64,000 bases of DNA from Buxus sempervirens (lineage: Eukaryota > Streptophyta > Magnoliopsida > Buxales > Buxaceae), in the NCBI GenBank assembly GCA_947561395.2, contig OX387190.1:29258858-29322857 (forward strand), read 5' to 3'. The position numbers were made by a program, and so were the translations under genes. The notes below the pieces were generated by a model that saw only the letters and a program-made list of their open reading frames with translations, was not told the DNA's origin and made no database searches. Below are positions 31,837-53,685 of this stretch, piece after piece. Within the stretch, counting starts at the first letter, position 1, and the number at the start of each line of letters is the position of its first letter.

Positions 31837-33371
31837 ATGAGTTTGTCACTGTTATTTTGTTCAATCGCCGTTCTTCTCATCTCCTACACGAGTTTTGGAT
31901 CTTTCAATCTTGTCACGGCAGCCACCACCTTTTCTGGGAACGAGACCGATCGGTTGGCTCTAATGGCGTTCAAGGCTCAGATACAGGGTGATCCTTTCCG
32001 ATTTCTGAGCTCCTGGAATGATTCTCTGCATTTTTGTCAATGGCGGGTTGTTACATGCTCTCCTCGTCATCAAAGGGTCACCTCATTAACTCTATATTCA
32101 TTGCGTCTCGTGGGGACGATATCTCCTTTCTTAGGAAATCTCAGCTTCCTGAAGGAGCTCGTACTCACAAACAACAGCTTCCATGGCCAAATACCTCAAG
32201 AACTCGGCGGTTTGTTCAGGCTAAAAACATTATTGTTCGGAATTAACTCGTTAGAAGGACAAATCCCTACAAACTTGTCCCGCTGTTCAAATCTCAAGGA
32301 ACTCAATTTGGCTGCGAATAAGCTCGTCGGAAAGATCTCAGTCGAGCTAGGGCACTTGTCAAAGCTTGAGAAACTTTATCTTCAGAGAAACAATCTGATA
32401 GGTGAGATCCCACCTTCTCTTTCCAACATTTCTTCTCTGCAAATGATTTCTCTCGCAGTGAATAATCTCGAGGGGAGCATTCCAGACTTTATAGGGAGGT
32501 TCAGAAGCTTAAGGAATCTTAGCATCGGTGAAAATAAATTCTCTGGTACGGTCCCTCATTCAATCTGCAACCTGACTTCTATTGTAGAAATCAATCTTAA
32601 TCAAAACCAACTTCATGGGAGTCTTCCTCATGATCTAGGCCTCACTCTTCCCAATCTTCGAGGCCTCTACATTGCTATAAACCAGTTTTCAGGATCTGTT
32701 CCACTCTCATTATCAAATGCTTCAGCACTTGCACAAATCGATATACCAGAGAATAATTTCATGGGGAAAGTTTCTGTGAATTTCGGAAGGTTGGAGAATC
32801 TCAATTGGCTAAACATGGATTCTAATCTTTTGGGCACTGGAGGAGCAGATGATCTTGATTTCATCAGTCCTTTAACGAATTGCAGTAAATTATCACTGTT
32901 GGCGATATCTCGCAACCATTTTGGCGGGGCATTTCCAGCTTCCATAACCAACTTGACAACCCAACTCAAACGTTTAGTGATGGGACAAAACCAGATCCAT
33001 GGAAGCATTCCAGAAGGAATATGGAAACTTGTTAACTTAGAGCTGTTAGGCATGGAATTGAATCAATTGACGGGTAGTATCCCATTTTCAATTGGGAAGC
33101 TTCAAAAGCTACAATTTTTGACTTTGTTGATGAACAAGTTTTCAGGGAAGATTCCATCCTCTCTAGGAAATCTTACGATAATCACTATAATCAGTTTAAG
33201 CCACAACAATTTAGAAGGCAGCATACCTAGAAGCCTTAACAGGGATTGTCGATATTTGTATTATTTGGATCTCAGTGCAAATAATCTTAGTGGTACAATA
33301 CCTCAAGAAGTTCTGAGCATTCCCTCTTTATCCCGCCACCTGGGCCTATCTTACAACTCCTTTAATGGCTC
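31837..33371 (+). pseudogene. LRR receptor-like kinase RLK2, 5' part
   Basis: This encodes the signal peptide, the LRRNT domain (FCQWRVVTC) and most LRRs, up to SYNSFNG, in perfect register with RLK3 (33371 corresponds to 57830). The large MULE then interrupts the reading frame; the chimeric frame runs on into the element and stops at 33507. The remainder of the gene resumes at 48315. Alone this half could at most give a secreted LRR protein with a short transposon-coded tail. Confidence 0.92.
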
Positions 33372-33438
33372 GGACGATTTCCTCTACGGCCGATTTCTCT
33401 ACGGTCGATTTACGGCGTCAATCCATTTAAGACGCGTG

Positions 33439-33477
33439 GATAAGAAGGTCTCGTGCGGCTCACGAGACCTTCTTATC
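33439..33477. repeat. Left-end hairpin of the MULE
   Basis: A 17-bp perfect stem (GATAAGAAGGTCTCGTG and its complement) with a 5-base loop, about 65 bp inside the left terminus. A twin with one wobble pair lies at the right end (48205-48243). Confidence 0.95.
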
Positions 33478-33911
33478 ATTTTTAACCTGGTTCATGGGTC
33501 GACCTAGACGAACCGGTTTTCATGACCCAACCGACCATCTGGTTCGTCCAAAGGAAAATGAGGGAGGACGATGGCGACTGAGAGCTCGCGGGGATTTTCA
33601 ACTTTTACCAAAAAATATTTGCCGCCAATCATTTCGTTTACACCTTTGGTTGGATGCAACGAAACAGTGGAGCAACCCATTTCCTCTACTCTTTCGTTGC
33701 GACTTCATTGTGGATTGGTAGGAGATTTGAAGTGGTGTCTGTTGATGCACATCTAATTTCAATCGGGATGACGATTTCTAAGCCTTCTTCTACCTCTGCG
33801 TCTTTTGCAAATCGTGGTAAGTTCATCCTCTGCTACTCGTTTTCCCTTGTTCATTTTGTTTTATTTTATTCTTGAACCCACGTTTCACATCGAAACCAAT
33901 TTTGTTCAGAT

Positions 33912-36731
33912 ATGGAAAATGGGAGTCAAATGATGTCTGAGCCAATAAATGGCATTGCAGACATCAACGCTCATTTGGTTGACCAATGTGACGTTATACA
34001 ATTGAGCAGTGAAAGTGAGTTGATACCGATGGTTGGCATGGTTTTTGCCACTGAAGAGGACGGTTTTAGATTTTATAAGGAATATGCCAGAAGCACTGGG
34101 TTTGGTATTAGAAGAGATACGGTTCACAGAAGAAAAGATACGGGGGTCATTTTTGATAGAATTTTTTGCTGTTCAAGAGAAGGTCATCGACAATATGATA
34201 AAAGAGATACGGAAGTTCAAAAGCACCGTGCTGAGACCAGGATTGGTTGTATGGCACGATTGAGGATTTTGATGAATGGCGAGGGAAAATTTGTGGTGTC
34301 GCAATTTGAACCAAAGCATAATCATCAGTTACTTTTGCCTAAGATGGCTCATATGTTAAGATCTCATAGGCAAGTAAGTGAGATCCAGGCTACGGAAATC
34401 GATTTAGCAGATAAAACAGGAATTGCTCCGAAAGCAATTGTAGAACTTATGCAAAGAGAAGCTGGGGGTGTTGATACTCTTGGATTTATGCATGCGGATT
34501 GTCAAAACTATTTGCGTTCGAAACGCACGACTGCCATAGAAGCTGGGCAGGCAGGGGCCTTGATTCAATATTTTGTTAAGAGGCAGGTAGAGGATCAATC
34601 ATTTTTCTATTCTATTGAGCTCGACACCGAAGATCTGATAACAAGTCTTTTTTGGGCGGATGGAGGAATGATAGAGGATTATAAGGCTTTCGGTGACGTT
34701 GTATGTTTCGATACAACGTATAAGACGAATAAGGAAGGCCGTATTTTTGGATTATTTGTTGGGGTAAATCATCATAGACAAAGTATTGTCTTTGGAGCAG
34801 CCTTACTTTATGATGAAACAATACCGACGTTTTGCTGGCTCTTCAAAACATTTGTTACAGCTATGTCTGGGAAAGAACCAAGAACACTTCTCACTGATCA
34901 TGATCAAGCAATGACAAGTGCAATTGCTTGTGTATTACCAAGAACGTATCATCGTTTTTGTGTGTGGCACATGTTTCAGAACGCGGCAAAACATCTAAGT
35001 GATGTGTTTAATCGTGAGAAATCTTTTGCAAATGAATTTTCACGATGTGTGTACGAGTATGAGAATGAAGATGAGTTTGTGGATGCGTGGAATGCGATGA
35101 TTACCAAATATAATCTGTCTGACAATAGTTGGTTGCAGGCAAGATTTGATGAGAGAGAGAAATGGTCATTGGCATACGGTAGGAATACGTTTTCTGCTGA
35201 GATGAGCACCACACAAAGGTCTGAAAGCATGAATGCAAACTTGAAGAAGCATTTGCAAAGTCAGAAAGAATTTATGCGGTTCCTGTGGCATTTTGACAGA
35301 CTACTAGAGGATAGAAGGTATGAGGAGTTGAAAGCAGATTGCAAAATGCTTACTACTGTTCCAGTTATTGAGGCTCCAAGTATGATGTTAGATGGTGTCA
35401 AGATGATATACACAATGTCAATTTTTGAGAAGGTTAAGAAAGAGGCATACAATGTCATGAACTGTGTCCCCTGCAAATGCGGTGAGATTGGCACACTTTC
35501 AGAGTATAAGGTTGTTAATAATCTTGAGCGTGGGCGTAGAGAGCACACAGTTACATTTGAATCTTCGACTGTCACCGTCAAGTATAGTTGCAAGAAATAT
35601 GAGTACGCGGGAATACTGTGTTGCCATGTCCTTATTGTGTTGCTAGTAAATGGAATCACACATATCCCAAAGCATTACATCATGAAGCGATGGACAAGGG
35701 ATGCGAAGAACTTGGATATTTTGCCACGAACCGAGGGATCAATGGAGGAGAATGATCCTAAAGTCGAAACAACCAAAAGATACAAAGATCTATGTTATAT
35801 GTATATGCAGATTATAAAGCAAGCTGCACAATACCGGGAGTCGTATGAGCATGCTGTGGAATTGGCAAATAAGTTAAAAGACGGCGTCCGTACAATTGCA
35901 ATTGGCAAAACATTGGAAAATCAATCTCAAAACCATCCCACCGCAACATATAGTACAGCCGGCTCCCAAAATACAGCGGCTGACTACGTTGTAGGCGGCA
36001 CTGAGGGAGTAAGCACGGGCGGTGCTACTGACAATCATACTTCTAATGACGGAGCTTTGATAGAAGATGTACTTTCTAAAGTGAAAGGTATTCGGAAGAA
36101 GCATAAGGGTGGTCGTGCAGGAACAAGTGTGCGTCGAATTCCAGGAGCACTCAATAAAGCCATCAGGAAGAGATCCAAAAGATCAGAATATGCTGGGAGC
36201 CCGTTGCATATAAATGCTATCAAACAGAACCATAAAAGCGGAACAAAGGGTAAACGTTCGAACTTTGAAGTTGGTACCTGTTCCAATGCAACTCCTATTG
36301 TCAATCATACTGTTCCATCGGCTCCATTTGGAAATGAGCTATTGATGATCCCATCCGATGTGCATTTGAATCCATATACTCTTTGCATTCAGGTATTTGC
36401 TGTCTTTAATTTTTGATTCACTTTCTACAACTGTGGCGGATTATTTATGTTGGATAGTTTGTGCGTTGTACAGCAACCGTTACGATATACGCGTGGGGTA
36501 GAAAGTAGTGTGGATGAACACACTAATGGCTCGACACCAAGCACGTATGACTCATCTCAATGCAGCCGGGATTCTCTTCGTCAATGTGATCAACCTTTTA
36601 CTCAATTGTTGCAGGTGCGAATACTATAAGTTGTTGAGTTTTTTTCATAATATCACATGTATTTAACGCAACACTTTTTTCTTCAGACGTATTTATCTCC
36701 TGTTGGATCTCAACCATATAGAAACGTTTGA
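33912..36731 (+). CDS. FAR1-domain MULE transposase (FRS/MURA-like)
   Basis: Exons are 33912-36392, 36474-36614 and 36687-36731, with GT-AG junctions that keep frame, giving about 888 aa. A 5' UTR exon may end at the donor near 33817; TTCAG precedes the ATG. The FAR1-type DNA-binding domain (about residues 45-140) has GFRFYKEYARSTGFGIRR, CCSREGH and HNHQ. The MULE transposase core (about 262-355) has FDTTYKTN with Asp about 267, LLTDHDQAM with Asp about 329, and FCVWHMFQN. The SWIM-like zinc finger reads YSCKKYEYAG...CCHVL: the usual first Cys is Tyr (about residue 558). The tail is basic. It would bind the inverted ends and cut DNA. No stops; the frame is open, so the element may have been autonomous recently. 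Confidence 0.88.
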
Positions 36732-36909
36732 AGGTCGCAAACAGGTAATTGAATTGTTTTATTAGAAATTATTTCACGTGCAAATTGTTTAATCTATATT
36801 TTAAACTAAAGGAATGCTTGCTAACTTATTGATCCAGAAAACATGATTTGTTCCCAATGCACAGTGTCTAATCTATATTTTGAACATGATTTTGTTATAT
36901 TGCATTTAG

Positions 36910-37059
36910 GTTGTTGAGAGTGGGGGAAAACACATAGAAATTGCTGTGATGACAAAAGATAAGGGACTGCAACAGCTTGATGAGGCGGCAATTGATGCAA
37001 CTGTTACTGAGCTCGAAGCAGAGAAAGCAGCAGCAGAAGCTGCAAACAAGGCTCTTTGA
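36910..37059 (+). pseudogene. Captured last exon of 20S proteasome alpha-4 (PAD1/PSMA7 type)
   Basis: Preceded by TTTAG, the frame reads VVESGGKHIEIAVMTKDKG, then LQQLDEAAIDATVTELEAEK, AAAEAANKAL and a stop. This matches the C-terminal tail of plant 20S proteasome subunit alpha type-7/PAD, including its Glu/Lys/Ala helix. Earlier exons are absent. It lies on the same strand as, and 178 bp after, the transposase stop, inside the MULE, so it is a transduplicated host exon. It could be spliced onto the transposase transcript, but no donor was shown to do so. Confidence 0.9.
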
Positions 37060-37463
37060 TTGTTGGGATACTTAATTCTTTACTTCAAAATTGTGGAATT
37101 ATGTATTGAATCTTTGTTTTAAAATAGGTTGTGATTCACTTAAAATTCGAAGTGAATAGTTATAGCAATTGATTATTACTCCCGAATATTACGAATCAAT
37201 GTCTTGCCAAGAAGAAACGCTAATTTCCCTAAGTGAACGTATGTTAAATGAAAGACCACAAGCATTTCGAAGAAAGTAAGCAAAATAAAAATCGTAACTC
37301 CAAAACATTGGAATAAGGAGCACAATTAGTGTGCTACATTTTGAAGAGTGCAAGCCACTAATGGGTACAACCTTAAATACATATAACACAAATACAACGT
37401 TTGTACACAAAATATAGTTAAAGGCTACGACAAAATACTAAAATTTCAGCTCCCCTCCTTGCT
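37060..37463. other. Intergenic gap between convergent MULE genes
   Basis: No gene was seen. Transcription of the transposase (+) and of the 37464-38600 frame (-) converges here, so it should hold both terminators or poly(A) sites. Confidence 0.5.
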
Positions 37464-38600
37464 TCAGTCTGCCTCACGTTCTTCATCGTCATCATCCTCG
37501 TCATCATCCTCGTCTTCCTCCCCCTCTTCGTCCTCTTGCTCCTGGTTAAAGTGCAGTTGAAGTTGCGACACTGCTCCCTGTATCTCTGCAAGCTGCCGGC
37601 TTTGCGTCTCTTGGGTCGACCGGATCAGTGCCACTTCTGCGCGCGATTGTTGCTGGACTTCATAAATCCTTGACAAATAATCCATAATGGTAGGTGGATC
37701 AAATGAAGGAGCAGCCGAAGATGAACCAGAATGAGAGGTTCCAGCCTGGGAAGATAATTGACACCGTGGACGAAGAGCACCAGCCCGAGTAGCAGTATTA
37801 GCATGCGCAACACTCTGTGCTACGGTCGTAGGCCCAATAGGCGGTGGAAGCACTAGAGGTCGCTCAATTTCTGGGATTACTACGTCAAGTCCTTGCATGA
37901 GTTGGGTAATGAGGCAAGGGAATATAAGTTTCCGCTTCCGTTTGAAGTGCATTATAATGTGTAGCATGGAACGAATCATTTGAGAAGGAAGGTCTATTGA
38001 ATGACCTTGGAGTAATGCATAAAAGAAGCTAAGTCTCTGGAGTGGGAGGGTATGTAAATGAGCCACTGGGCATATGTTAGTGCTCATAATCCGAAGAACA
38101 ACCGACCGATGAGTTGGAATATTATCAATCACTAGATGTGTTCCATAGAAAGGGGTTGTACTGCCTAACACAAATGATGCCATAACAGTAGGTGAAGGGG
38201 TGTTTGTCTCATGGTAAGGATATCGAGGCTCAGACACTCTTGGTATCCCTAATATCTCAGAGATGATACCAGGGGTGATGGAAATTGTTCGACCACGAAA
38301 ATACACTTTAAATCTGGGAGGGGTAAGGGACCAATCATGCACGTTTGCATAGAACTCCCGAACAAGGATGGCTTGGGGTGCAGGAAGATTTGTGAGCAAA
38401 GGCTCCCAACCCCTAGAAGTAAAAACTGAAGTAATCTCGGGATCAAGCTCGCGGATTATTACCTCCCGCTCTAACAAGAGACTCCGGTTGTGCAGGTATT
38501 GACGAAACCTCATTTACGCATGACGGTCAATAAAATATTCAGTATCAAAATCATGAGGTTGTACGTTAGACGTAGACCCTCGGCTGCGTTTTTTAGGCAT
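37464..38600 (-). pseudogene. 'Putative plant transposon protein'-type ORF with one internal stop
   Basis: The frame starts at 38600 with MPKKRSRGSTS, meets TAA at 38516-38514, and continues in the same frame from MRFRQYLHNRSLLL to 37464 (379 codons in all). The body resembles the conserved domain found in plant 'putative transposon protein' families: REFYANVHDW, FKVYFRGRTISIT, ISEILGIPR and YALLQG, followed by a Ser/Pro linker, a predicted coiled coil (IYEVQQQSRAEVALIRSTQE) and an acidic Glu/Asp tail. Its function is unknown. The stop may be a single-base change in an otherwise intact gene, or translation may begin at the downstream Met to give 349 aa. It is on the same strand as the Ulp1-like gene. 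Confidence 0.72.
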
Positions 38601-38694
38601 CTGCATTAACAGTATAGTATTAGATCGCGATGAAAAGAAAGGTTGAGATGCACATATTCAAGCAATGGAAGGAGAAAGGAAATATAACAAAAAA

Positions 38695-38720
38695 AATATA
38701 TATATATATATATATATATG
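38695..38720. repeat. (AT)n microsatellite
   Basis: About 12 AT units upstream of the 37464-38600 frame, in its presumed promoter. Confidence 0.9.
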
Positions 38721-39120
38721 AAATCGTTTAAAAACCAACGAAAAGATACACCCAATGCATGAACGACAAGCGTCATTGGTTAAATAAGATGAAATCGTTT
38801 AAGAAGTGTGACGAAACAACGACAAGAGTCATTTTCTTCAATGTATAAACCATCCTAAATGAAATCCTAAAACATGGAAATGTGAACGAAATATTGGGCG
38901 AACGAAATATTGTTTGAAGAGAAATGTGAAATATTGTCCCCACGTACCTTGGGCGAACGAAATATTGCCCTGGATTCAATCTGAAGCACAAAATTGCAAA
39001 TGCGTGGCGAATCGACTTGGAGTAGTGGAAGGGGTGGTGATGGTCGCAACAAGGAGAGAATACCAAGAAGAAGGGATCGCAGGGTTTTTAAGCTCGGGTT
39101 TTATTTTTTTTAAAATTATA

Positions 39121-39500
39121 GCTTGACGCTCGAGCAGCTCCAAGTCGCGCGCAGAGCGTCACTTGTTCGTTCTCTGTGGTTTTTTCAATTTTGCCTTGAC
39201 GCTCGAGCGGCCCCAAGTCGCACGCAAAGCGTCGCTCTCGGGTTCTCTGAGGTTTTTTCAATTTTGCCTTGACGCTCGAGCGGCCCCAAGTCGCGCGCAA
39301 AGCGTCGCTCTCGGGTTCTCTGAGGTTTTTTCAATTTAGTGTTGACGCTCGAGCGGTCCCAAGTCACGTGCAGAGCGTCGCTCTCGGGTTCTCTGAGTTT
39401 TTTAATTTAGTCTTGACGCTCGAGCGGCCCGAAATCGCCCCGAAAGCCCCATACTTAGACTTTTCTGGGTTCGCGCATGACACGCTTGACGCTCGAGCGG
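39121..39500. repeat. 73-bp tandem repeat, about 5.5 units
   Basis: Each unit starts TTGACGCTCGAGCGGC and contains AAGTCGCGCGCAAAGCGTCG and GGTTCTCTGAGGTTTTTTCA. Starts lie near 39123, 39197, 39270, 39343, 39413 and 39485. A 10-bp palindrome CGCTCGAGCG recurs at each start (the first copy has one change). The last two units are more diverged. It is GC-rich against an AT-rich background. Confidence 0.92.
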
Positions 39501-39555
39501 CGCGAAATCGCGCCTAAAGCGCCATACTTGGCGAATTTTTGCACCTCGTTCATTG

Positions 39556-40404
39556 TCCCTACCATGGTTGGACTTGTACCTAAGCATGGTTTGACTTGTA
39601 CCTAGGCATGCTTTGACTTGTACCTAGGCATGGTTGGACTTGTACCTAGGCATGGTTTGACTTGTACCTAGGTATGCATGGTTGGACTTGTACCTAGGCA
39701 TGGTTTGACTTGTACCTAGACATGCTTTGACTTGTACCTACGCATGGTTGGACTTGTACCTAGGCATGGTTTGACTTGTACCTAGGCATGCATGGTTAGA
39801 CTTGTACCTAGGCATGGTTTGACTTGTACCTAGGCATGCTTTGACTTGTACCTAGGCATGGTTTGACTTGTACCTAGGCATGCTTTGACTTGTACCTAGG
39901 CATGCATGGTTGGACTTGTACCTAGGCATGGTTTGACTTGTACCTACGCATGGTTTGACTTGTACCTAGGCAAGGTTGGACTTGTGCCTAGGCATGCATG
40001 GTTGGACTTGTACCTAGGCATGGTTTGACTTGTACCTACGCATGGTTTGACTTGTACCTAGGCAAGGTTGGACTTGTGCCTAGGCATGGTTTGACTTGTA
40101 CCTAGGCATGCTTTGACTTGTACCTACGCATGGTTGGACTTGTACCTAGGCATGATTTGACTTGTACCTAGGCATGGTTTGACTTGTACCTACGCATGGT
40201 TTGACTTGTACCTAGGCATGGTTATACTTGTACCTACGCATGGTTGGACTTGTACCTAGGCATGGTTTGACTTGTACCTATGCATGGTTTGACTTGTAAC
40301 TACGCATGGTTTGACTTGTAATGAGGCATGGTTTGACTTGTACGTAGGCATGGTTTGACTTGTAACTACGCATGGTTTGACTTGTACCTAGGCATGGTTT
40401 GACA
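39556..40404. repeat. 22-bp minisatellite, nearly 40 units
   Basis: The basic unit is GGCATGGTTTGACTTGTACCTA, with variants TTTGAC/TTGGAC, CATGG/CATGC and AGG/ACG. Some units carry a 4-bp insert (GCATGCATGG). Higher-order pairs of units recur. It lies between the 73-bp array and the CACTA element and is non-coding. Confidence 0.95.
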
Positions 40405-40892
40405 TCGATTATCTCTTCTATAATTTATTTTTTCGACTAAATTAAAAGAGCAAATTGGTCGACCAATGTAACTAATTAAGTAGGTCTTTTCTAAAATGTC
40501 TTAAGAGTTTAAATTTAAAAAAGAGATTGATAATATTACAATTTACAATTGTAAAAACGGAGAAAAGACCTGTCATCACAGTAGAAGGAAGTAACTTAAA
40601 AAAGGGATTGATAATATTGTAAATTTACAATTTTCTTCCTCTCACAAACAATTTCATGTACAATTTAATTCTACAACCATCTTCCGTTGTACAATTTGAT
40701 GTGTATGTACAATTTTAATGTACAAATAATTTAATGTATAATCGTCCGCTGTACGTTGATGTTTAAGATGGCCTTCAGCTTCTTCACCTTGCTATCAAGC
40801 CACGAATGCCGGAGTTGTGAATCTTGCAAATAAACAATGAAAAGTACGCACCTGAGTGTTATTAGTTTCAAATAACCTTGTTATTGAACATG

Positions 40893-43800
40893 CACTACAA
40901 AAAAAAGGTACTTTTAGCGGCAACGTTTTTACGACATTTACTCGGGTAGCCACTGAAACATCAAATTGCGACACCTTTTTTCATCTGCCGCAATTTATTA
41001 GTCGCCTTTTCTTATTTGCACGACGGCACCTTCTGTTTAGGCTTTTGCGACGCTCTTTTGTGTTTTCGCGACGATGACTTTTGTTTGGGCTTTTGCTCTT
41101 TCGCGCGCAACACATTTCTCCCTCCTCCGCGCGTGCATCTTCATTCTTCCCTTTTTCCTCTCACTATCTTGATCAAGCCCTAGTCCCACTTTTTATCTAT
41201 TGTGAAAGATAGAAGACACCCGATCAGCACTCAGTGAAGCAGACCCTCTGTGATTGTCAATCTTCGCATCATTGGAGGGTTTTACAGGTTTTTGGTTTCG
41301 TGATTCTTTTCCTTTCCCCTTTCTATGGTTCACTCAGAGATTTAATATGCGAAATTTTCTGGTTTAAATGTGCATCTCTGTTTTTCTGATCGTTTTGGAT
41401 TTATTTTTTTTCATCATCTGTTTCTGCTTAAGTTCTTCTAGCATATTGAACATTGATCGATGGAACAATGTTAGCCCTCTAAAAAGAACGGCAACTACTA
41501 ATTGCTTTTTCTATTACAGAACCCCAACCTACCGTTCTCGACTACTCTCTATAAAGGAAACGCAACCTGCCATTGCCGTCCTTGGTGCTATTGTCATTCG
41601 TTGAAGGATTTTCCTTTTTCTTTTGATTCCACTCGTTACAATCTGAGGTAAGTATTATTTATTTCACATCTCATTATTTTCATAGAAAATTTCTTATCTT
41701 TCTTCTATCTTTCGTTTTCCCCAATTGGTGTTTCATACCTATTTGTAGGAGTCTACTGATTTTGCTCTTATGGAGTATTGCAATCTGGAATTTGTCTTTT
41801 TTACCTACTGATTTTCCCCAATTGGTATTTCTTAGCTTTTTTGTATCTTTTGTTTTCCCCAATTGTTGTTTCATACCTATTTGCTGATCAAGCTTTTCAT
41901 GACAATTCCTCCCTCTCTAGAGTAGTTGTTTTCTACGTTGTTGGGTAAGTTTCAATTTAATGTTCTCTGTCTGAGTTCCTGAAACATGTTAATTCTTATT
42001 GATTGAGATGGAGAATATTATCTACAACTTCAATTTTGTATGATGCATTTCTTGCGTGATGATTGGTTTCAGGAAATAAAAAAGACTTTAGGTTCTTAGT
42101 AATTAGAGGCTTGATGTATTGTTTGAATTGAACTGAATACCATGTGTACAGAAAGAAAATTTTTACAATTTGCTATCATCTTTCTTAGCTCTTATAATTT
42201 ATAAGAACGCACATATAGAGATTGGATTTGGTTTATACTGTTAGACTTTCACTTTATATGCATCAAATTGTTGGGATCAGATGACAGTGAATCCAACAAG
42301 GAACTTATCCCTACTGTACAGGTGACTACAAACAACAGCCCTATTGTTCATAGTCTTCCTTTGTAGTATTAATTTTGTCCTGGTAACTTCTATTATACGA
42401 TCATTTTAAAAAGAAAAATCTTAGTAAGATTCACTCTAAGGATTCAATGTAATTCTCTTTTCTGCAAGAAGAAAAAAGACAAGAAACAATTGCCTTTTGT
42501 TTGGTACTTATGCATGTGGATAATGATATGTTACTCCTTTCCTTTACGTCTGAAGTATGCCAAAAATTTATTGGACCGACTTGAATGCAGCCATTTTGTG
42601 ATTTATTGCCTTGTGGCTGAATATTTACCCATTAGTTTTTATCATATTGCATTCCTTTTGTTGCTTTTTAATTAATAGCATTTGAACCTTGCTTATGACA
42701 TGCATGATTATGAAAATCATAAAATAATTTTTTCTGGGTGGGAAGCTAGGATTTTGCATCTCCTACCATGTACGTAACAATATATTTATATCTGGTATTA
42801 TTGTGACTCCGAATCTCTTCCTCAGTCCTATACCACAGTCAAAAGACACAAGTATATACTGCATGCTAGAGTGCTTGAGTTATCTAAAGATAATTATTTC
42901 TGTATGCTATCTACAAAATTGAAATAATGTTACCTAGAGTTTACTTGCCTGAAGTTGATTATAGGATTCATATTAGAGAACTTGATGCTAGGATTGGCCC
43001 ATTCCACTGTGTGTTAAAATCAAGTTCTAGGCAGCTATTGCAGATGGGTTCTTTGCTGCAAAGTTGTTCCACAGATTTCTAGGAAATCCTTCTTCTTTTT
43101 ACTTTCATTTTTCTCATGCTTCATGTCTCTCAAAATTTTCTTTTGGCAGAAATTTATTTGAAGTTTTATCAAGCAACTAATTAAATTATATTTTGTCTTT
43201 TGTGTTTATTTTGTAGGCTTTTAGCTTTAGCAATACAAGTGCAGAGGAGCTCTTGGCGAGAGAACAAACAGTGATATTTGTGTAAATGACCATTAGAATG
43301 TATATGCATAGTTCAAAGACATTGAAATTTGTTTAATTGTGTACTTTGAGTTTATAATTTTGAGAGATTTTAATTTCTTTTAGGTTAAAAACAAGTAATT
43401 TGAATGTTTCGTGTGATTTTCCTAATAAAATTATATCTTTGGATGTTTTAACCATCTTAAGTTATGCTTCACAATTCTCTTTTTATTGCAAATCAGGTTA
43501 GATTGTAATTACCAAAAAAAAAAAAGGGATTATTTGGCCACAGTACTTTGTATTTTTAGCGGCAGCCTTATTCCGTCGCAAATTTAATGTCATCAAAAGT
43601 ACAAATTTTTAGTGGCAACTTTCGCGACAATTGCCTTCTGTCGCCAAAAGTTTTTCAGTAACTATTAGCGGCGGCCTTACTTCGTCACGAATTCAAATGT
43701 CTTCGTCGCAAATTCAAATGTGAACTTACAGTTACCAAGCTTTCGCGACAACAATGGTTGCCGCTAAAACTCTTAATATTAGTGGCAACCGTCGCTTATG

Positions 43801-43932
43801 TTGCCGCAAATAGTATTCTCGACGGCCTTTTTTGCGACGACCACTGGTTGCCGCAAAATCTTTTTGGCGGCGGCTCATCTATTATTGGTGGCAACATTAG
43901 GATGCCGCAAAAAATTGCATTTTCTTGTAGTG
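40893..43932. mobile_element. Non-autonomous CACTA element nested in the MULE
   Basis: It begins CACTACAAAAAAAAGG and ends TTTTCTTGTAGTG, with the 3-bp target duplication ATG at 40890-40892 and 43933-43935; length 3040 bp. Both subterminal regions contain many short motifs such as TTAGCGGCAAC, TTGCCGC and GCGACG in both orientations, as expected for CACTA transposase binding. There is no transposase. The interior (41100-43320) resembles a spliced plant transcript unit, including a short frame AFSFSNTSAEELLAREQTVI ending near 43285. This is probably captured host DNA, not identified. Confidence 0.92.
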
Positions 43933-43955
43933 ATGTGACAGATAGGTCTTACCTC

Positions 43956-46900
43956 TTAGGCTTCTTCACCTTCACTACTCTCCTCTTCACGCGCCTCTTC
44001 ACTTGTGTTTGCTGCCTTAGAAACAATGATATCCCGTACTTGGTTTGAAGGGTGCTTAACGAAGTTAACAAGGAACTTATCCCTACAGTGTGCGATATTA
44101 CTCTGAATTCATAGAAGACGTACTTGTGTGTTACTAGCGACGTACTTGATAACTATAATTATAAAAAAACATTTAACTCATATACGCACCTGATCAAATG
44201 CTGGAGACAAGGTGCTGCCATCCCACACCTCCATGAATTTCATCACAAAAACACCACAATCATACCTAACAACACATCACTTGTAAGAAACTAGCATATG
44301 TATGACGCGAAACAAACCTACGTATGAAGCGAAACAAACCTAACGGCTTACCCGTTGGTTTGGTGTGGGACCGTAACCTGCCGCAACTCCCACTGTAAAA
44401 GTGGAAATTCATCACCACCTCCGAAGTCATGTAAGATCTTATCCAACATCTGGATCTAAAAGTGACGAAGCGAGTGTCAATATAATAAGTATTGTAAATG
44501 GTATGAGAAAAATTCATTAATATCAAAATTACTTGTGTTTCAATTCTGGATTGATGTCCCGCACGACGCGCCCCATCCATTGAGTCAAGCACATCCACTC
44601 TCCGCTCTTTTAGGTTTAAAACTAAAAGAAACCAATGATTGCGCCGATGCATGGGAACAAAAATCTACAGTATAGTAAGATAACCTTATAAATAAAAAAC
44701 CGATTACAGACTGCTAAGTAAGGATAAAAGTATAAAAAATCTGAAACAAATAATTTATGAAGGTGGCACATTGCATTGCATCACAAGAAACTTACAAGAT
44801 CGCATGCAACCACAGAATATCCAAGTCGCCCTGGATCGAAGTGAGGACGCAAGGATTCGGTGGAACCACGATTAATATTCATTATCCACTCCTGCATGAT
44901 ACATGCAAGGAAATTTTATTCATTAGTCTGGCCTTGAACAAAAAACAAATAAAATACAAAGAAGTCCTTACACAAACGTATGTGGGGCAATAATGTCGGC
45001 TGACTTTGCGGGTAGTCGACAATTGTTGGTTCTTTGTAAGACATGCTCCAAAAGCATTGATAGCCTATAAAAAAAATACCATTGAGCGATGACATGTACA
45101 ATTGAACAACCAATATATAATTCACAAGATAGGATTTGCATACCACACTATTAACATGTTTGTTGTCTAACAAACATGCCAATTCAGATGCCGACGCATA
45201 GATGGAATCAAATTTGAATATAATTTCACTGACAAAAACGAGGAGGAATTATTCACTACGAATTATAATACATAAATTACATTTACAAGTTAGTTTTGAA
45301 ATATTATCTTACTCAGACTTCTTGTTTTTGCGAACGTATCGTAGGATTGAGCTTTCTTCTGGGCCCAATCGAGGACGGAGGCGATGGCCAATATATGGAG
45401 TGCGACAAAGTTTACCACGTGACTTCTTGCGTGACCCTCTTCGGGGTTTGGTGACCTCGGTCCCTGTGACGCTTCGAGCAGGAACTATCTCCACCTCATC
45501 CACTTGCATTTTATCTGTCTGGACCTCCGCAAACACCGCTGTGTCGAGAGCATCGGTATGATCCCCGCTCTCGTGGGTGGTATGATGGGAGGGTGACATC
45601 CTTGCTTCATCAGGGACATTGGGCATGGGAGAATCGGGAGCATCCATATGATCAAGGCTTTCACGTGGCACGTGGATATCGGAGGGGTTGACAGTTTCCC
45701 TTGACTTCACGTGATTTAGAATCTCCCTATACGTGTCCAATATCTTCGTAAGATGACCCTGAATAACCTGGAATACACAACACCCAATCATAAAACATGC
45801 GGATGTGTTCTTAATAAGAAAACGTGCGGTATAAGACAAAAATAAAATAAAATAAATAAACCAATCTTACAGGATCTGGATCTCCACGAAATTGCCCAAG
45901 ATCAATGATATTTAGTTCATCTGCATTGCCTGATGCCTCATCTTGCACCTGGCTCTCGGCATGGTGCTCAACCACCTACAATATTAGTGAGTACGTATAA
46001 ATGTTGCGTTATTTGAAAAATTGACAACAAAATCTACAAGTGACGAAGCAGTTCAACTCAAATTTATATATGTATACCTTCCCCTTCACAAACGCGAGGT
46101 AATTGCACAAAAATGCAAGCTTGTGTGCATTCAAACATTATACATGTTTATATTTGAAGATAAAAATTCATTCACAGTGTGGCATCTGTCTGTAAGTGAG
46201 GGAGGGTGTTTTTTTCTCAGAAATTAACTTCACTCAGTCGTAATGATATTGCTTGTAAAACAATACTTCATTCATACGTATACAATTTTATGAAGGCAAT
46301 TTTTAAAGAATGATGGCATATTATTGTACTTCTCTATGCAGTTTGTGTTTTGAAATACTTTACACACTCCAACTAAAAGTTACAATATGAGTCCTAGAAT
46401 AGAGGTGTGTTGACAGTTCTTCCATTTCTAATCATCCCTGTGCAATGATGCTTACAATTCAAAAAATAAAATAAAGGTGTTCCAAATATTTGAGCAAGTG
46501 TATTCAGATATCCAAAACAATTTTAAAAAAAAATTTTGTACAAAAAGAAATTATGCCTACAATTTCTATGCTTGTATAACAAAACCGTCCAAATATACAC
46601 CAGGAATAGAACTAAAAGTCACTGACAAAAGGAAACCCAAGCCATCACCTAATTCTCAAAAATGGTCACATTCAAAGAGTCAAATATATAAACCAAAATG
46701 GATAATATTCGACATATATAGATGCATATAAACATGGATACATACACATATATTGCCAAATACATGACACACAAACACAGATATAATTACTATATAACAA
46801 TAATTTACTCATCCCAAGCAACATCAAATAATGAACAATGAAATGACTAATTCCAAAAAACTCTTTGTTGGAAACATACAATTGAAAACGATTTTTTACA

Positions 46901-48142
46901 AGTTAAATAATACCTGTGAAGATAAGTTCTTGAAATCCAAGATCCTGTATTCTCCAAAGGCTGCCTTACCAAACCAGACAACCTACTGAATGCTAAAATA
47001 TTTTTTTTATAAGTGATGATATGTATTAATACAAAGTATAAAATAAGTACTGAATGCTAACATATCACCGAGACACAAAAAAAATATATATTGTTTTTGT
47101 TTTTTTATTGACTTATTTATATTTTCTGAATGCTAGCATATCACCGAGACAGAAAAATAAATAAATAAAATAAACAAATACAAGTTCATCTCAAATGGAT
47201 TGGTGCATGTAAATAATCAATCTGATGTTTCTAAAATAGGTGAGTTCCAATGTCTATATGGTAGAGCTAACTGATGATCTTCACATTCATCATATCTTTA
47301 AACATCCAAGGGAGAAAATTGAAACGTATTAGACATAAAGGAAGCACATTCTCAACAAGATAAAAAATTCTGAAGAGTTCTAATCAAGTGGCTTCATAAA
47401 TCTCATTAAAAGAACTAAGATTTTAAAAGAAGAGTAGCAACAAATTGATCAAAAAATATATGATTGGCATGCCCAATTATTCTCATTGGAGGGAAGTCCA
47501 CTCCAGCCCTTCACAATACTCTTCTAGTAATACACAAAGCAATTAAATTTTTATTTCATCAGGGTATTTCAATTCTTTCCTTTATCTTCACTTAAGTTAT
47601 AATATATGGCTAGGCTTGTGTGTTTACAAGACCTAACACTCATTAAGCGATTATGCATCCATGCACCAAAGAAGAAGAAGAAAGAATAATTTCTTCTTGT
47701 TCCTAGCTTCAAAAGGCAGCAGAATCATCCATGTTACCACTTCGGTTTTATTTCTGCTTAGATACACACTGAGACTAAAACAATCCATAAAATCAATCAC
47801 CCCAAAAGCATCATTTCAGAAGACGACAATCGATTTCAAAGGCCATGTATTCATATTGTTCGCATACATTCATTCGAAATTACAGTACACAAAGTCGTCC
47901 AAATTTAAACAAAACAAATAACGTAACTACTTCTCTTCCATTCAGGTTTCAAATATGCAAAGAATTAAAGAATCTTCTTCTCGTACCTGAACAGACGAGG
48001 GAGACGGTGTTGCGACAGAGTCTGATAAGAGATTGAAAGAAGTTGGCGCGAGAGAGGTTGTGACAGGAGCAAACGTTGCAGGTTTTTTGAAATTCCTCGC
48101 TCTCGCGCTCGTAAATTGGGGATTGGTCGGATGAATAGGCAT
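43956..48142 (-). CDS. Ulp1-like (C48) cysteine protease of the MULE, multi-exon
   Basis: Exons read on the minus strand with matching GT-AG phases: 45975-45871, 45767-45313, 45228-45144, 45064-44972, 44891-44796, 44664-44533, 44449-44352, 44265-44190, 44102-43956. The catalytic set is complete: His in RRNHWFLLV, Asp in VDVLDSMDG, Gln in VPHQTNG and Cys in YDCGVFVMKFMEVWDG. Ulp1 enzymes process SUMO-like proteins, and Ulp1-type genes are known from plant MULEs. Two further exons upstream are possible and in phase, 48142-47987 (MPIHPTNPQFTSARARNF) and 46982-46914 (VVWFGKAAFGEYRILDF), starting near the right inverted end. No stop interrupts the frame. The nested CACTA ends 23 bp beyond the stop codon. 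The protease call is firm; the 5' exons are tentative. Confidence 0.85.
45976..46913. other. AT-rich putative intron of the Ulp1-like gene
   Basis: No coding signal was seen on either strand. If the two upstream exons are real this is the second intron. Confidence 0.35.
46983..47986. other. AT-rich putative first intron of the Ulp1-like gene
   Basis: No domain-bearing frame. A duplicated phrase CTGAATGCTANCATATCACCGAGACA occurs near 47049 and 47128. If the exon at 48142-47987 is real this is intron 1. Confidence 0.35.
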
Positions 48143-48204
48143 GGTTTGGTGGTTTTGGGCCGAAATCGGTTCGGGTTGGTCGACCGATCGACCAGCTGAA
48201 AATT

Positions 48205-48243
48205 GATGAGAAGGTCTCGTGCGCCTCACGAGACTTTCTCATC
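48205..48243. repeat. Right-end hairpin of the MULE
   Basis: GATGAGAAGGTCTCGTG, 5-base loop, CACGAGACTTTCTCATC: a 17-bp stem with one wobble pair. It mirrors the left-end hairpin at 33439-33477. Confidence 0.95.
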
Positions 48244-48314
48244 CACGCGGCATCCGTCCATTGGGGCCGTAAAAATGCCGTAGGGACGGTGCCGTAGAGG
48301 AAATCGGTGCGCTC

Positions 48315-49951
48315 CCTACCTGTGGAAGTTGGAAACTTGAAAAATCTATTGTCTTTGGACATCTCTGAGAACAAGTTATCTGGAGAAATTCCAAGCAGCA
48401 TTGGAAGTTGTACTGTCTTAGAACATCTCCATATGGAGGGTAACTTGTTTCAAGGACCAATTCCCTCAACGTTAAATTCATTGAGAGGAATTCGAGAATT
48501 AGATCTTTCACGCAATAACTTGTCTGGTCAAATTCCGAAGTATTTGGGGAACATGTCGTTGGAGAAATTAAATTTGTCTTACAACAATCTTGAGGGTGAA
48601 GTGCCTGTGCAAGGAGTCTTTCGAAATGTCAGCTCAACTTCAGTAGCCGGAAACATTAATCTTTGTGGGGGAATACTTGAATTGCAACTGCCTTTGTGCA
48701 CCATTGAAAAGCCAAAGAAACTTCAAACTTCTCTTGCACTGATCACGTTAGTGACTTCAATTGTTTGTGGGGTTCTAGGATTAACATTGTTGTCATATTT
48801 CTTGATCTTTTGCTGGTTAAGGAAGAAAAGAAGGGAGCCTCCTTCGCCTAACTCACCGTTGCGTTCGCTTTTGAATGTTTCCTATGAAAGGCTACTTAAG
48901 GGGACCGATGGGTTCTCTTCAAACAATTTGATTGGAGTGGGGAGCTTTGGGTCTGTTTATAAGGGAGTTCTTGATCAGGACGAAAGAGTAGTTGCAGTGA
49001 AGGTACTCAACCTTCAACATCAAGGAGCATCCAAGAGCTTCGTCGCAGAGTGTGAAGTCTTGAGAAACATCCGGCATCGGAATCTTGTCAAGATTTTGAC
49101 TGTTTGCTCGAGTATTGATTTTCAAGGTAATGATTTCAAGGCTCTGGTGTATGAGTTCATGCCTAATGGGAGTCTAGAAAGGTGGCTACATCCAATTCCA
49201 GAGACAGAAGAACCCAAGAAGTTGAACCTTGTTCATAGATTAAACATTGCCATTGATGTGGCTTTTGCATTGGATTATCTTCACCACCATTGTCAAACGC
49301 CAATAGTTCATTGTGATCTGAAGCCAAGCAATGTTCTTCTTGATAACGACATGACTGCCCGGGTGGGTGACTTTGGGTTGGCGAGGTTCCTTCAACAAGC
49401 CACTGGTACCGTCCATCCAAATGAAACCAGCTCAGTTGCCATAAAGGGGTCCATCGGTTATGCTGCTCCAGGTAAAAAAATCACTAAACTTTCCTTCTCC
49501 TTTTGTTCAATGATGGTAGTGTTAGATGTTCTAATTTGCAGAATACGGCATGGGAAGTGAGATTTCAACAAATGGCGACGTGTACAGTTATGGGATCCTG
49601 TTATTGGAGATGTTCACAGGGAAGAGACCCACAGATGGAATGTTTAAAGATGGCTTAAACCTTCATACCTTGGTGAAGATGGCTTTGCCTGATGGAATGA
49701 CGGAAGTCGTGGATCCCATACTTCTTTCCACGCAAGAAGCAGACGAAGAAGAAGAGGTAGTAGTTGCAGAGGAAATTGTGATCCAGAGACACATGAGAAG
49801 AGCGAGAGTGCAAGAGTGTTTGATTTTGATACTTAGCCTTGGAATCGCGTGTTCTATGGAATCTCCCAGAGAAAGGATCGACATTGTCGATGTTGCCAAT
49901 GAACTGCAAGCGATCAAGAAGTTGATTCTCCAAATCCGGGAAATGCCGTAG
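48315..49951 (+). pseudogene. LRR receptor-like kinase RLK2, 3' part
   Basis: Exon 1 continues from [11 protein letters not shown] to the donor at 49471, and exon 2 is 49542-49951 after a GT-AG intron, joining as GYAAPEYG. It contains the last LRRs, a transmembrane helix, and a complete kinase ([25 protein letters not shown] non-RD loop, DFG). There are no stops. The 1157 nt of exon 1 after the MULE equal the corresponding RLK3 segment. A frame opening at a GTG in the MULE end (48307) could in principle give a kinase-containing protein without signal peptide, but no promoter was shown. Confidence 0.92.
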
Positions 49952-51184
49952 ACTTCCACATTGTCGATGCTTATTTCTGCTTATAACTTATTAGAAGATC
50001 GAAGACATGAAAAGACGAAAGGGTTTCTTCCACAAACCCACGAGATTCCTAGTCCTCTCCTTCACCAGCCCTTCATCTCTCCTCTCTTTTACGTTTTTTG
50101 CATCTGGGTCTTCAAGGATGCCTCATGGATCTCTCAAGAACATTTTTATTTACGAGATAAGCCGTTCTGGGGTTTTAACGACTGAGTATTTTCTTTACAG
50201 TGTTTGCAGATCTTAGTGATTGCTTCTTCGACTTTGGGGTATGTTGATTAATTTAATTTCCCCTTTCCTTTTTCAATTTTTTATTTGTTGCTTTGCTGAA
50301 ATCAGATCGAATCTGAAGACAATTTGGATGTTTTAGACGAATTTCTCTGTGTTGTAATTGTGGGTTTCTAATCTGATCTTTGATTGTTCCCTGTATTTAC
50401 CCCTTTGCTAAAATCATAGAAAACCTTGACATTTAAATTGTAGGGTTTTTGCAATACTGGTTGAAGAAGCCGTTGCTCATGACATTTATTTGTATCCAGG
50501 GTACGACTGCTGTATGTTTGCCCTCCCCTTATATATTCCTCCAAATTAGTTACCATCTGTGAAATATTTGTCCCACCAAGGTTTCAATTAGGGTTAGCTG
50601 ATTAGTCAGTGAAGTTTTATTATTTGTATTAATCTCTTTTTTATGTTCATGATTATTGTTACAAATGATTAAAGATGACCAGAGAAGCTTGAAAGACTAC
50701 TTTCGTTGTCAAACATAATGCTCAATATTTCTTATTAACTTTTTTTATTAATTTAATGTTTTTCAAATAATCTTGTATTTAGCTTAATATATTGAATAAT
50801 AGGGGCAGAGGTACAGTACTCCTGGTTTCTTCTTCATTATCCTTCTATTTCTTCAGTCATTAATTAGAGATCCGAAGTGAAGTTTCATTCAAATTAATGT
50901 GAGAATATTTCCCCAAGTGTGGGATTTGGTCACTATCAATGCTGGTCAAATTTCACAACCCGCTTTCTGTGGCTGTTGGCTCCAAGGCTTTCTGGACCAA
51001 GGAACCTACTTGTAAAGAAACTATTCATATATCAAATGGGGCGAGTTAAATAGGTAACCTGCTCCAATCCACACACTGATTAGGGTTTGGTGTTGCCAAA
51101 ATTGAGTTAGGATAGGTTAGGGTTTAGTCCAACCTACCTCGAACTTGACGTACTTGTTAGGGTTTGTTGTTGCCAAAATTTTGC
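49952..51184. other. RLK2 3' flank, non-coding, duplicated
   Basis: Partner of 3922-5354, with several small deletions (for example around 50230 and 50420-50480). No gene was recognised. Confidence 0.65.
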
Positions 51185-53060
51185 ATAAGGATGGCTCCAA
51201 TACCTATTCCTGAAGCATCACATTCAATAATGAAGGGTTGAGAAAATTCCGAAAGTACAAGAATAGGAGCTTCTTGTTACCAAAAAAAAAAAACAAGAAT
51301 AGGAGCTTCTGTCATAGCCTATTTTAGAAAGTTGGACTGTGTAGCTTCCTCGGTCCAAAGAAAGGAAACCTTTTTAAACATTTGAGTCAAAGCCGGGTGA
51401 TGCTGCCATAATTTCGAACAAACTTCCTATATTATCCAGTCAAACGACCCAAAAACCCACAAAGAGCTTTGATGTTGGTGGGTTTAGGCTAATCAAGAAA
51501 GGCAGAGGCCTTATCTGGATCCATGGAAAACCCGTCTCGTGAGATGATATGGCCCAAATAATTGATAGAAGTTTGTCCAAAATGCATTTTTCATTTTTGA
51601 TAAAGAGAGAATTAATATGTAGAATATGCAAAACCTGCTCCAAATGCTGCAAATGGTCAACTCATGTTTTGCTATATATAAGCATATCATAAAAAAAAAG
51701 ACAAGAACAGACTTTCAGATGAGTTTGAAAAGCTGTTTTTTCCAAATCGTCTGGATGCATACGAATTTGATAATTCATCGATAACCGGGATGGGAAATTT
51801 GTCTTTGATGATAATCTCATTGAAAGCTCTATAGTCAACATACAAGAGCCATGATCCATCATACTTCTTGACTAAAAGAACAGGAGAGGGATATGGACTT
51901 GTACTAGAACGTTAATAGGCCCTTTTCTTTGAATGATAGGTATTTTATGGTCATGAGCCCTGCGAGGAGGAAGTTTCATAGATTCGTTGAAAAGTGAGCC
52001 GTAAGGATTTAAGAGGTGATCCAATGATGGATCCAACGTGGAACTTTGGTTTAATTCCCTTGAATTTGAACAACCCAATTAATTGATACTCAAAAGGAAC
52101 ATGTCATGAGGTGATGCTTTGATTGCCTTCCTCATCACTTTGTCTGCAACCACTCGATCTCCAGGGGTGATAATGCCATGTAGTTGGATTTCCTTATGTG
52201 ACACGGTGAACGTCATCCAAAGGTTTTCAAAATCCCAAAGAATGGTGCCAAGAGTTCGAAGCCATTGAGCGCCAAGAGTAGCATCACAACCACCAAGAGA
52301 TACCAAATAAAAATCAATAATAAAGATGCTATCCTGTAGACTTAGTTGAATTCCCCGGCAAAACCCCACACTATGAATATGATCACCATTAGCGACTACC
52401 ACTTGAAGCTTTGTACTTCCAGATGATTTTAGACCCAGACGCCGAGCTACCGACACGTTGATGAAGCTATGTGTACTTTTGGAATCAACTAAAAGAATAA
52501 TAGGTTGCTTACCAACAAGCCCTTGAACTCACATGGTTTGAGGGGTTTGGATTCCACAAATTGCGTGTAGAGATATTTCGGGAATAACATTATCATTATC
52601 TGGCAAGACTTGTGGTGGTGACTTAGAAGTATCCTCCATGGTTGGCATCTCTTCCTTGTAACATTCTTTGATTAGGAACAATTTTTGACAACGATGACCC
52701 TGAGTGTAGCGCTCATCGCAATTGAAACACAAACCACGTGACCTTCTGTCTTGCATTTCAACTGGAGATAAGTGACGGATCGGATGGGATTTTGCTCACG
52801 ATAGTGTTGAGGAAGGCATGGGCAGATGATGCTTAGAAATAACAGATGAGCTGGGTGTGGGCAGCCTTAAATGATCTGGAGCCAAGGAAGGATTAAAGCG
52901 ACGTTGAGCCAAAAAATGTTGCGGTTCTTGGTAGTGAAACGCGTAACGGGGCGATCAACAGGAAAGGATGAACAATCTTTTCTACGTTGATTCCCTATTT
53001 TGAAGATCCCAGTAATATTTGGTAGGTTGGTTGGAGACAACCTGAACCTTTCTAACAAAA
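51185..53060 (-). mobile_element. Decayed Ty3/gypsy remnant, copy 2
   Basis: The minus-strand partner of 5355-7275. It has a zinc knuckle (CFNCDERYTQGHRC, near 52700), a protease region (LGAQWLRTLG, near 52260) and RT scraps (QIRMHPDD, near 51760). A deletion has removed much of the RT fingers/palm present in copy 1. A ~20-bp tandem duplication with an inserted A-run sits at 51270-51310. It is dead. Confidence 0.83.
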
Positions 53061-53439
53061 AGGAATGCTGGAAATTTGTTTATTCTCCCCTTTTTATTCA
53101 TATTTCAGCCTCTATATATAGAGGTTTACAATAAGCAATCTAAGCTGTAGCCAGAATAATAACAAACCTAATCAAATTTAAAATAAAAAAGGATAATGCC
53201 TATCAAAATAACAGTTCATGCCTATCAAGATAACAATGAATAAAATAAACAATTGAGATAAAAGATCCAACTTCAAACTTCCCTAAAATCTGCATAACAA
53301 TCTCCAACTTATATCCATCCGTAACAGATTTAGGGAACCTGGGAGTCGTGCAGGTGGTGCTGAAGCTGGATTGGACGGTGGGAGATCTGATAGGGGCGGC
53401 TGTACAGCAGTACTTGAAGGAAGGGCGAAGGCCGGAAAC

Positions 53440-53685
53440 AGTGAGCATACATCCTCTACAGCGGGGGCTGTAAACAGCCCCTCACATTCGGTGTGGGCCC
53501 CACCATTCATTTGGGGGGCCCCACACCATACATGTGAGGGGCTGTAGACAGTGAGCATACATCCTCTACAGCGGGGGCTGTAAACAGCCCCTCACATTCG
53601 GTGTGGGCCCCACCATTCATTTGGGGGGCCCCACACCATACATGTGAGGGGCTGTCTACAGCCCCCGCTGTAGACGATGCCCACT
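53440..53685. mobile_element. Dimeric MITE (MULE-like)
   Basis: Absent from copy 1 (junction about 7660). The ends are AGTGAGCATACATCCTCTACAGC and, reversed, AGTGGGCATCGTCTACAGC. The interior is almost wholly inverted-repeat (CAGCGGGGGCTGT, GTGAGGGGCTGT, GGGCCCCAC). The first 110 bp are repeated from 53550, so the element is a tandem dimer. Flanks CGGAAAC and CGGAAAG suggest a 7-9 bp target duplication. Confidence 0.82.

Follow-up and report, generated by a model that had tools for sequence, protein, structure and literature searches.

The stretch of Buxus sempervirens DNA considered here, 64,000 nucleotides of contig OX387190.1 (hereafter the window), contains a tandem set of leucine-rich repeat (LRR) receptor-kinase genes, one of which begins at 31837, breaks off at 33371 and continues from 48311 (Table 1). 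What lies between is almost certainly a defective copy of a multi-copy and recently mobile family of Mutator-like elements (MULEs) with a FAR1-type transposase, which carries in addition a piece of a host proteasome gene, a Transposase_32 gene, two tandem arrays and the remainder of a gene for an Ulp1-type protease. In more complete copies elsewhere in the genome, this last gene is predicted to encode a fusion protein, in which an HMG-like part and a plant mobile domain (PMD) are joined to the protease; the reading put forward below, namely a MULE family of this kind whose accessory protein would counter host silencing, is given as a whole a probability slightly above 0.4.

An interrupted receptor-kinase gene

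The limits of the insertion follow from two uninterrupted receptor-gene paralogues within the window, from which the empty site AATGGCTCC.TACC can be read, and from the family termini found elsewhere. A preliminary description, drawn from the letters of the window, had placed them at 33372..48314, which is the insert itself together with one copy of the duplicated GCTC. The inverted ends with hairpins that it reported were borne out, both by the 77% match of the terminal inverted repeats (TIRs) and by the 39-nt palindromes, the 17-bp stem of which is found at each end, none of 200 shuffles folding as well at either end. At this copy the target duplication is 4 bp only, versus the 9 bp typical of the family; a 9-bp duplication was searched for at the window copy and is absent, and a loss of 5 bp at one junction would fit. 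As exon 1 of the split receptor gene has no stop and has kept the length of its paralogue (897 codons, about 131 substitutions), the insertion is inferred to be young.

Within the element, the open and spliced FAR1/MULE transposase gene recognised early on is upheld by its Pfam matches (FAR1, 3.9e-26; MULE, PF10551, 2.7e-26) and by a stop-free predicted model of three exons. By its domain content the transposase would be of the Jittery-like, FAR1 type: the Jittery group is described with an N-terminal FAR1 domain and a C-terminal SWIM or CCHC finger (PMC6446971 Table 1), and the assignment is carried by the FAR1 match, SWIM reaching only 0.012, below its own cut-off. At the level of the family, the element has what defines a MULE, i.e. 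a MULE-type transposase, TIRs and a 9-bp target duplication, within the 8-11 bp class.

Table 1. Features of the MULE insertion and of its target gene (positions in the window)
Feature	Position	Strand	Details or basis
LRR receptor-kinase gene (target), left half	31837..33371	+	
Left-hand GCTC of the duplicated 4 bp	33368..33371		Paralogue comparison
MULE insertion, outer limits, nested CACTA included	33372..48310		Two receptor-gene paralogues and family termini elsewhere
Left TIR	33372..33519	+	33375-33519 versus 48306-48163, 77% identical in inverted orientation
39-nt palindrome, left TIR	33439..33477		Shuffle folding test
FAR1/MULE transposase gene	33912..36731	+	Predicted exons 33912-36392, 36474-36614, 36687-36731; 888 codons, open
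Captured host PSMA7 fragment	36779..37083	+	Pieces of the last intron, the last exon (36910-37059), then a very short stretch past it
Transposase_32 gene	37464..38600	-	378 codons in other copies; here a stop at codon 29, then 349 open codons
73-bp tandem array	39107..39438		CpG-rich
22-bp tandem array	39563..40403		37.5 units, consensus CATGGTTTGACTTGTACCTAGG
Nested CACTA, not part of the MULE	40893..43932		ATG duplicated at 40890-40892 and 43933-43935
Ulp1 gene	43956..45975	-	Nine remaining predicted exons, catalytic set included
Junction of the ~2.0-kb deletion	46086..46093		HMG-like and PMD exons lost; comparison with other copies
Right TIR	48163..48310	-	Same TIR comparison
39-nt palindrome, right TIR	48205..48243		Shuffle folding test
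Right-hand GCTC of the duplicated 4 bp	48311..48314		Paralogue comparison
LRR receptor-kinase gene (target), right half	48311..49955	+	

A multi-copy and recently mobile family

Other copies were sought in the same 677-Mb genome. With the left 1 kb of the element, the best 40 of 396 candidate places were scored, window included, and fell into two groups: 20 places (window included) span most of the query, the other 20 match from base 375 or 406 on, the left end being diverged in most of them; with the right 1 kb, the best 40 of 222 candidate places were scored. From the first group, 12 of the 19 other places were fetched, ten at first and then two relatives, D84 and D85, and one copy (C11q) was taken from the second group. 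The order transposase, proteasome fragment, Transposase_32, arrays and Ulp1 recurs in nine of the ten first-fetched copies, as well as in C11q, the exception being C11m, which ends within the transposase gene. Where both ends could be read, an exact 9-bp target duplication flanks seven of the eight copies (the exception being C1b), as counted outside 12-nt ends finishing GATTTCC, an end length chosen after inspecting the termini; in C12n, the right end was not seen within 19 kb. Because the order recurs and the duplications are exact in these seven copies, the pieces move as one unit, in line with the single MULE of recurring gene order initially proposed, for which the absence of other copies combining these genes had been set as the refuting condition, a condition that the copies from the same genome do not bear out.

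Over 2.9 kb of the transposase region, identity between copies reaches 99.7% among the 21 pairs listed, and we read such near-identical copies as a sign of recent movement of the family. The transposase gene is open in seven of 11 copies, the window copy counted, and the ratio of non-synonymous to synonymous substitution rates (dN/dS), for which here and below the pairs share branches and are not independent tests, is 0.23-0.38 in nine of ten pairs of fetched copies and 0.49 in the tenth, then 0.35 against D85 and 0.45 against D84. All three genes are open together in five of ten other copies (C11p, C21p, C3, C12m and C1b); for the tenth of these copies, C11q, only the HMG/PMD/Ulp1 gene entered the open-frame counts. 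As for the two relatives, D85 (L034), a decayed relative at 85%, keeps the family order without the proteasome fragment; D84 (L032 then L033) matches in its left part only, which is the part used here, and its right end was not found in 16 kb.

Another place, L029/L030 (G000:C11:1519570-1533464), is a mosaic, the right end of which is 99% like that of the window element and the left end about 80%; a left end of this kind recurs in most of the 19 remaining places of the second group. Between subfamilies, an exchange of ends and bodies may have taken place.

Accessory genes, arrays and passengers

In the window, the remaining part of the protease gene matches Peptidase_C48 (1.3e-19), its eight introns are all bordered by GT and AG, and its H, D, Q and C residues align with those of SENP/Ulp1 chains, SENP2 included; we take H, D and C to be the catalytic residues and Q the oxyanion residue of these proteases. 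The four residues are kept in all ten other copies holding the gene; with the residue set of a SUMO protease complete, the protein is a putative SUMO protease. The preliminary description had rightly recognised an Ulp1-like gene with a complete H/D/Q/C set; it had missed that the 5' exons are deleted and, with them, the fusion. Exons 1-4 and most of exon 5 were taken by the deletion, the missing stretch being present in the ten other copies; the far side of the deletion was sought by exact words and none was found, the deletion resting on the comparison of copies. There, the full gene has 14 predicted exons and 768 codons, which would encode successively the HMG-like part, the PMD and the Ulp1 domain. 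No stop, frameshift or non-GT/AG border is found in six of the ten copies holding it; as to the others, C11q has two altered acceptors, C1a and C12n have stops, and C22 and C12n have frameshifts. In Pfam, the full protein matches C48 (2.1e-17) and, above the cut-off, the plant mobile domain (4.4e-11), and its N-terminal part is marginally HMG-like and not proven to be an HMG-box; DUF1985, which VANC and KAONASHI (KIU) proteins carry, is at 0.012, below cut-off.

As judged from its substitutions, the HMG/PMD/Ulp1 gene is constrained. For the whole of the 768 codons, dN/dS is 0.24-0.43 (six pairs); by part, and over the same six pairs, it is lowest for the HMG-like part (0.08-0.16), the linker being at 0.20-0.35 and the PMD at 0.24-0.45. 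Over the Ulp1 exons remaining in the window, it is 0.33-0.49 in ten pairs, with seven of the ten intervals below 1 and three exceeding it. A comparison with D85, which carries stops of its own, gives a dN/dS of 0.51 (0.32-0.79) over the protease part and of 0.54 (0.35-0.76) over the linker.

The second accessory frame of the preliminary description proved to be a Transposase_32 gene (3.2e-26), of which the true start in other copies, at 38600, and the stop at codon 29 in the window had been overlooked. Codon 30 is an ATG and the entire Pfam domain lies downstream of the stop, so a shortened protein may still be produced from the window copy. This stop (38514-38516), shared with D85 and followed in the window by the ATG, would suit either a recurrent mutation or a codon 30 usable as start. 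The gene is open in six of ten copies, window counted, with at least one stop in the four others and no frameshift in any of the ten; stops are also present in D84 and D85. Its dN/dS is 0.34-0.51 in four pairs among the window copy, C11p, C21p and C1a (one interval exceeding 1), and 0.64 (0.45-0.92) against D85; the gene is taken as probably under constraint. Since Transposase_32 has been matched to an open reading frame of a sunflower Athila element (PMC11728184), the gene and the arrays could be conceived as the remnant of an Athila-like retrotransposon inserted in the element rather than as a MULE component, which is quite improbable: long direct repeats other than the arrays are absent from 31-51 kb, the gene order is the same in the copies reaching this place as well as in D85, and the gene is frameshift-free in ten of ten copies.

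Following the stop codon of the transposase gene, the 305-bp proteasome fragment contains the last exon of proteasome subunit alpha type-7 (alpha-4), with 7qve as top match in the PDB (3.5e-12); the 20S proteasome alpha-4 exon noticed at the outset is confirmed by this match and by the host gene of the same genome, in which lies the single genome-wide occurrence of a degenerate pattern fitting the host exon but not its captured counterpart. Across 194 bases, identity between fragment and host gene is about 90%, and a second piece comes from the same intron; the fragment is present in all ten other copies reaching that place; a genome search with this stretch, in which the best 40 of 58 candidate places were scored, is by design blind to copies without it. 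The protease and the proteasome piece had together been taken as a SUMO/ubiquitin-system theme acting on host control of the element. Both pieces are indeed there, and the fragment recurs in the copies reaching it; its share of the subunit is nonetheless limited to the final 50 codons, it has an altered tail and lies beyond the transposase stop codon, seven of its eight changed codons are non-synonymous, one copy has a frameshift in it, and in D84 and D85 its position is occupied by other sequence with no better match to the host gene than shuffles. The fragment as a working part was rejected on these grounds, and it is best read as a passive passenger captured in the lineage of this family and decaying since. 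Because it decays as a passenger and two relatives are without it, the ubiquitin theme is unsupported, and such a joint action appears extremely improbable. At the corresponding spot, D84 (L032 3470-3830) and D85 (L034 3630-3990) have a different short stretch after the transposase, 96% alike between them; it may be another captured piece, and the spot a capture slot.

The state of the fragment, together with the stops of Transposase_32 in four of ten copies and in both relatives, would also suit a more general view in which all the cargo besides the transposase, as in Pack-MULEs, has been passively transduplicated from the host or from transposons and is functionless for the element. On the whole this is improbable and, for the Ulp1 gene, it is disfavoured: a frame of 768 codons over 14 predicted exons is kept in six of ten copies at the low dN/dS given above, and Transposase_32 has no frameshift, its interval staying under 1 in the comparison with D85 but not in that with D84.

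The 22-bp array is present in the window and in all ten other copies reaching it, with 6.5 to 43.5 units. A 16-base core, CATGGTTTGACTTGTA, is identical in every consensus, the variation being confined to the last six bases; D85 also has such an array, the unit of which matches the family unit at 17 of 22 positions. In the window, CHG sites are absent from the array and CpG sites scarce, whereas CpG is abundant in the 73-bp array and in the TIRs. A resemblance of the unit, which here reads ACTTGTAC, to the VANC6 motif AGTTGTAC (PMC5735166), with one mismatch, was drawn post hoc and dropped. In its right part, D84 encodes another PMD protein, oriented the other way and only 33% identical (L032 8816-9695), followed by 22-bp arrays of other sequence (L033 761-2069), the units of which match the family unit no better than shuffles, the shuffle comparison bearing on one of three units. 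The same period with a different protein and a different unit would fit co-divergence of the two.

Between the arrays and the Ulp1 gene lies a separate CACTA element overlooked by the preliminary description. About 3 kb long, it has CACTACAA termini and a 3-bp target duplication, and it is absent from all ten other copies reaching this place, which have an uninterrupted site with a single ATG. The Ulp1 gene was considered as a part of this CACTA and rejected as such, lying outside it and occurring in ten copies without it. A 23-base stretch of the CACTA (42295-42317) is 96% like the last Ulp1 exon of the MULE (44067-44089).

Elsewhere in the window, a second LRR receptor-kinase copy (14704-18731) is broken by about 770 bp of other sequence near 16070-16840, and a hAT transposase gene of 696 open codons is found at 61189-63279, the left copy of this segment (7778-10932) being 95.5% alike with the frame split. 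Besides, a perfect two-copy tandem duplication of 110 bp, rich in inverted repeats, occupies 53438-53655, and the frame at 52079-52528 has a retroviral-type aspartyl protease domain (RVP_2, 1.4e-9), likely a retrotransposon remnant. Rfam and tRNA scans of the window gave zero matches.

A putative anti-silencing system

The mechanism that we favour, tentatively and at somewhat less than even odds when considered for itself, is that the accessory protein serves against silencing. The transposase would bind the palindromic TIRs and move the element. The HMG/PMD/Ulp1 protein would be an anti-silencing factor of the VANC/KIU type, recruited to the element through the HMG-like part and the PMD, with the 22-bp array as the most likely site, where the protease part would free silencing proteins of SUMO or of a modifier related to it, leaving the element transcribed and able to jump. 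Transposase_32 would be a second helper and the proteasome exon a passenger, contributing at most some extra 3' sequence. Such a scheme draws on the Arabidopsis VANDAL elements with VANC and KIU genes, which are likewise multi-gene MULEs with an accessory protein able to carry Ulp1 (PMC13317346), KIUs being described in that review as VANCs with Ulp1. VANC proteins have as their targets noncoding motifs repeated in tandem (PMC5735166), and these tandem repeats vary between related elements as the 22-bp array does, a resemblance short of proof of binding (PMC5735166; PMC10398659). PMD and/or a DUF is listed for half of the VANDAL group (PMC6446971 Table 1), a PMD being also present in the Buxus element, and the capture of PMD by MULEs has been suggested to serve anti-silencing (PMC5418596).

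A number of observations weigh against this scheme or against parts of it. The HMG_box match is below cut-off in the whole protein (5.3e-4) and just short of it in the first 89 residues alone (25.2 versus 25.4 bits), and the PDB matches of this part, headed by TFAM, are weak (best 0.029). For the Ulp1 domain alone, dN/dS is 0.33-0.73 with all six within-family intervals exceeding 1, and for the PMD part against D85 it is 0.65 with an interval beyond 1 (0.39-1.55). Transposase_32 is at 0.73-1.03 in all six pairs that include C22 or C12n, in which the gene is broken, and at 0.80 (0.57-1.19) against D84, and the codon-29 stop of the window is identical in D85. As for the array, since tandem arrays homogenise by themselves, the stability of the core does not prove function. 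Beyond the array, a slight excess of short words of the unit speaks for the scheme, for 10-mers (5, the maximum of 60 shuffles being 4) and 9-mers (7, maximum 5), and stems from two places; against it, 8-mers are not in excess over shuffles, none of the unit-like sites outside the array beats shuffled sequence, and a 13-base match to the unit beside the right TIR is absent from the eight other copies read there, though present in C11q. A spread of the unit through the element was not retained, the evidence being weak and mixed. Finally, Arabidopsis KIUs are reported with low expression and with SUMO as an unlikely substrate (PMC6117577).

The main rival to anti-silencing is a direct role in transposition, in which the accessory proteins would aid cutting, integration or complex assembly in the manner of MURB, and the arrays would be by-products of slippage. 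Each end of the element has a gene pointing into it, the transposase gene at the left and, on the opposite strand, the Ulp1 gene at the right, a convergent layout that MuDR also has. Most comparisons place the dN/dS of the accessory genes under 1. In maize, mudrB is apparently needed for integration (PMC6446971). Against this, PMD and Ulp1 domains occur in transposon or host factors tied to silencing and anti-silencing (PMC5418596; PMC13317346), Jittery and TED are reported without mudrB-like sequence (PMC9569675), and in grapevine ULP is found in some MULE families and not in their close relatives (PMC2528002). Since Jittery and TED go without and the distribution of ULP in grapevine is patchy, an optional helper fits better than a core part, and the direct role in transposition is considered unlikely.

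Returning to the anti-silencing reading, it can be asked how far the Buxus family departs from known systems. An ULP coding sequence downstream of the transposase open reading frame is described in Jittery-like MULEs of grapevine, where melon is also cited (PMC2528002); the likeness lies in the combination of a Jittery-type MULE with an ULP gene, and in the section of that paper describing them no HMG-box, PMD, Transposase_32, 22-bp array or proteasome fragment is mentioned. As ULP-bearing Jittery-like MULEs were thus already described by 2008, the Buxus family is a variant and not a new kind, and of the distinct MULE lineage suggested by the preliminary description, the recurrence of the arrangement stands and the distinctness amounts at most to that of a variant. 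The maize MuDR is alike in having another gene besides that of the transposase, as well as long TIRs and target duplications of 9 bp (PMC9569675), and by description unlike in this second gene, which is here HMG/PMD/Ulp1. MULEs with PMD proteins, often antisense, are listed in several groups including VANDAL, and the Jittery group (group 36) is not among the groups with PMD in that table (PMC6446971 Table 1); capture of PMD by MULEs is known (PMC5418596), as in the Buxus element, with the difference that the PMD is here joined to Ulp1 instead of the transposase. With regard to VANDALs, which are marked by weak or no TIRs and a non-FAR1 transposase, the Buxus element differs by its FAR1-type transposase and clear TIRs. 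On the TIRs the sources disagree, VANDALs being called non-TIR (PMC13317346) or degenerated-TIR (PMC10398659), or listed with TIRs of 46-174 bp (PMC6446971 Table 1). In the open-access literature searched, no HMG-like, PMD and Ulp1 fusion with Transposase_32 and a 22-bp array was found.

A bolder proposal would credit a lineage of FAR1/Jittery-type MULEs with a sequence-specific anti-silencing system of its own, distinct from the VANDAL one, in which the HMG-like/PMD/SUMO-protease fusion docks on the 22-bp array and strips silencing proteins of a SUMO-type mark, array and protein co-diverging between subfamilies; stated in full, this is doubtful.

This analysis also stresses how misleading a single broken copy can be, the most important parts of the element being deleted in the window copy. 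The role of Ulp1-type proteases in plant transposons is described as unknown (PMC13317346). With near-identical recent copies, an intact gene, a candidate array and the genome of the host, these recurrent proteases become directly testable and, if it is true that the fusion acts on the array, the removal of a SUMO-type mark would give transposons a concrete way of escaping silencing.

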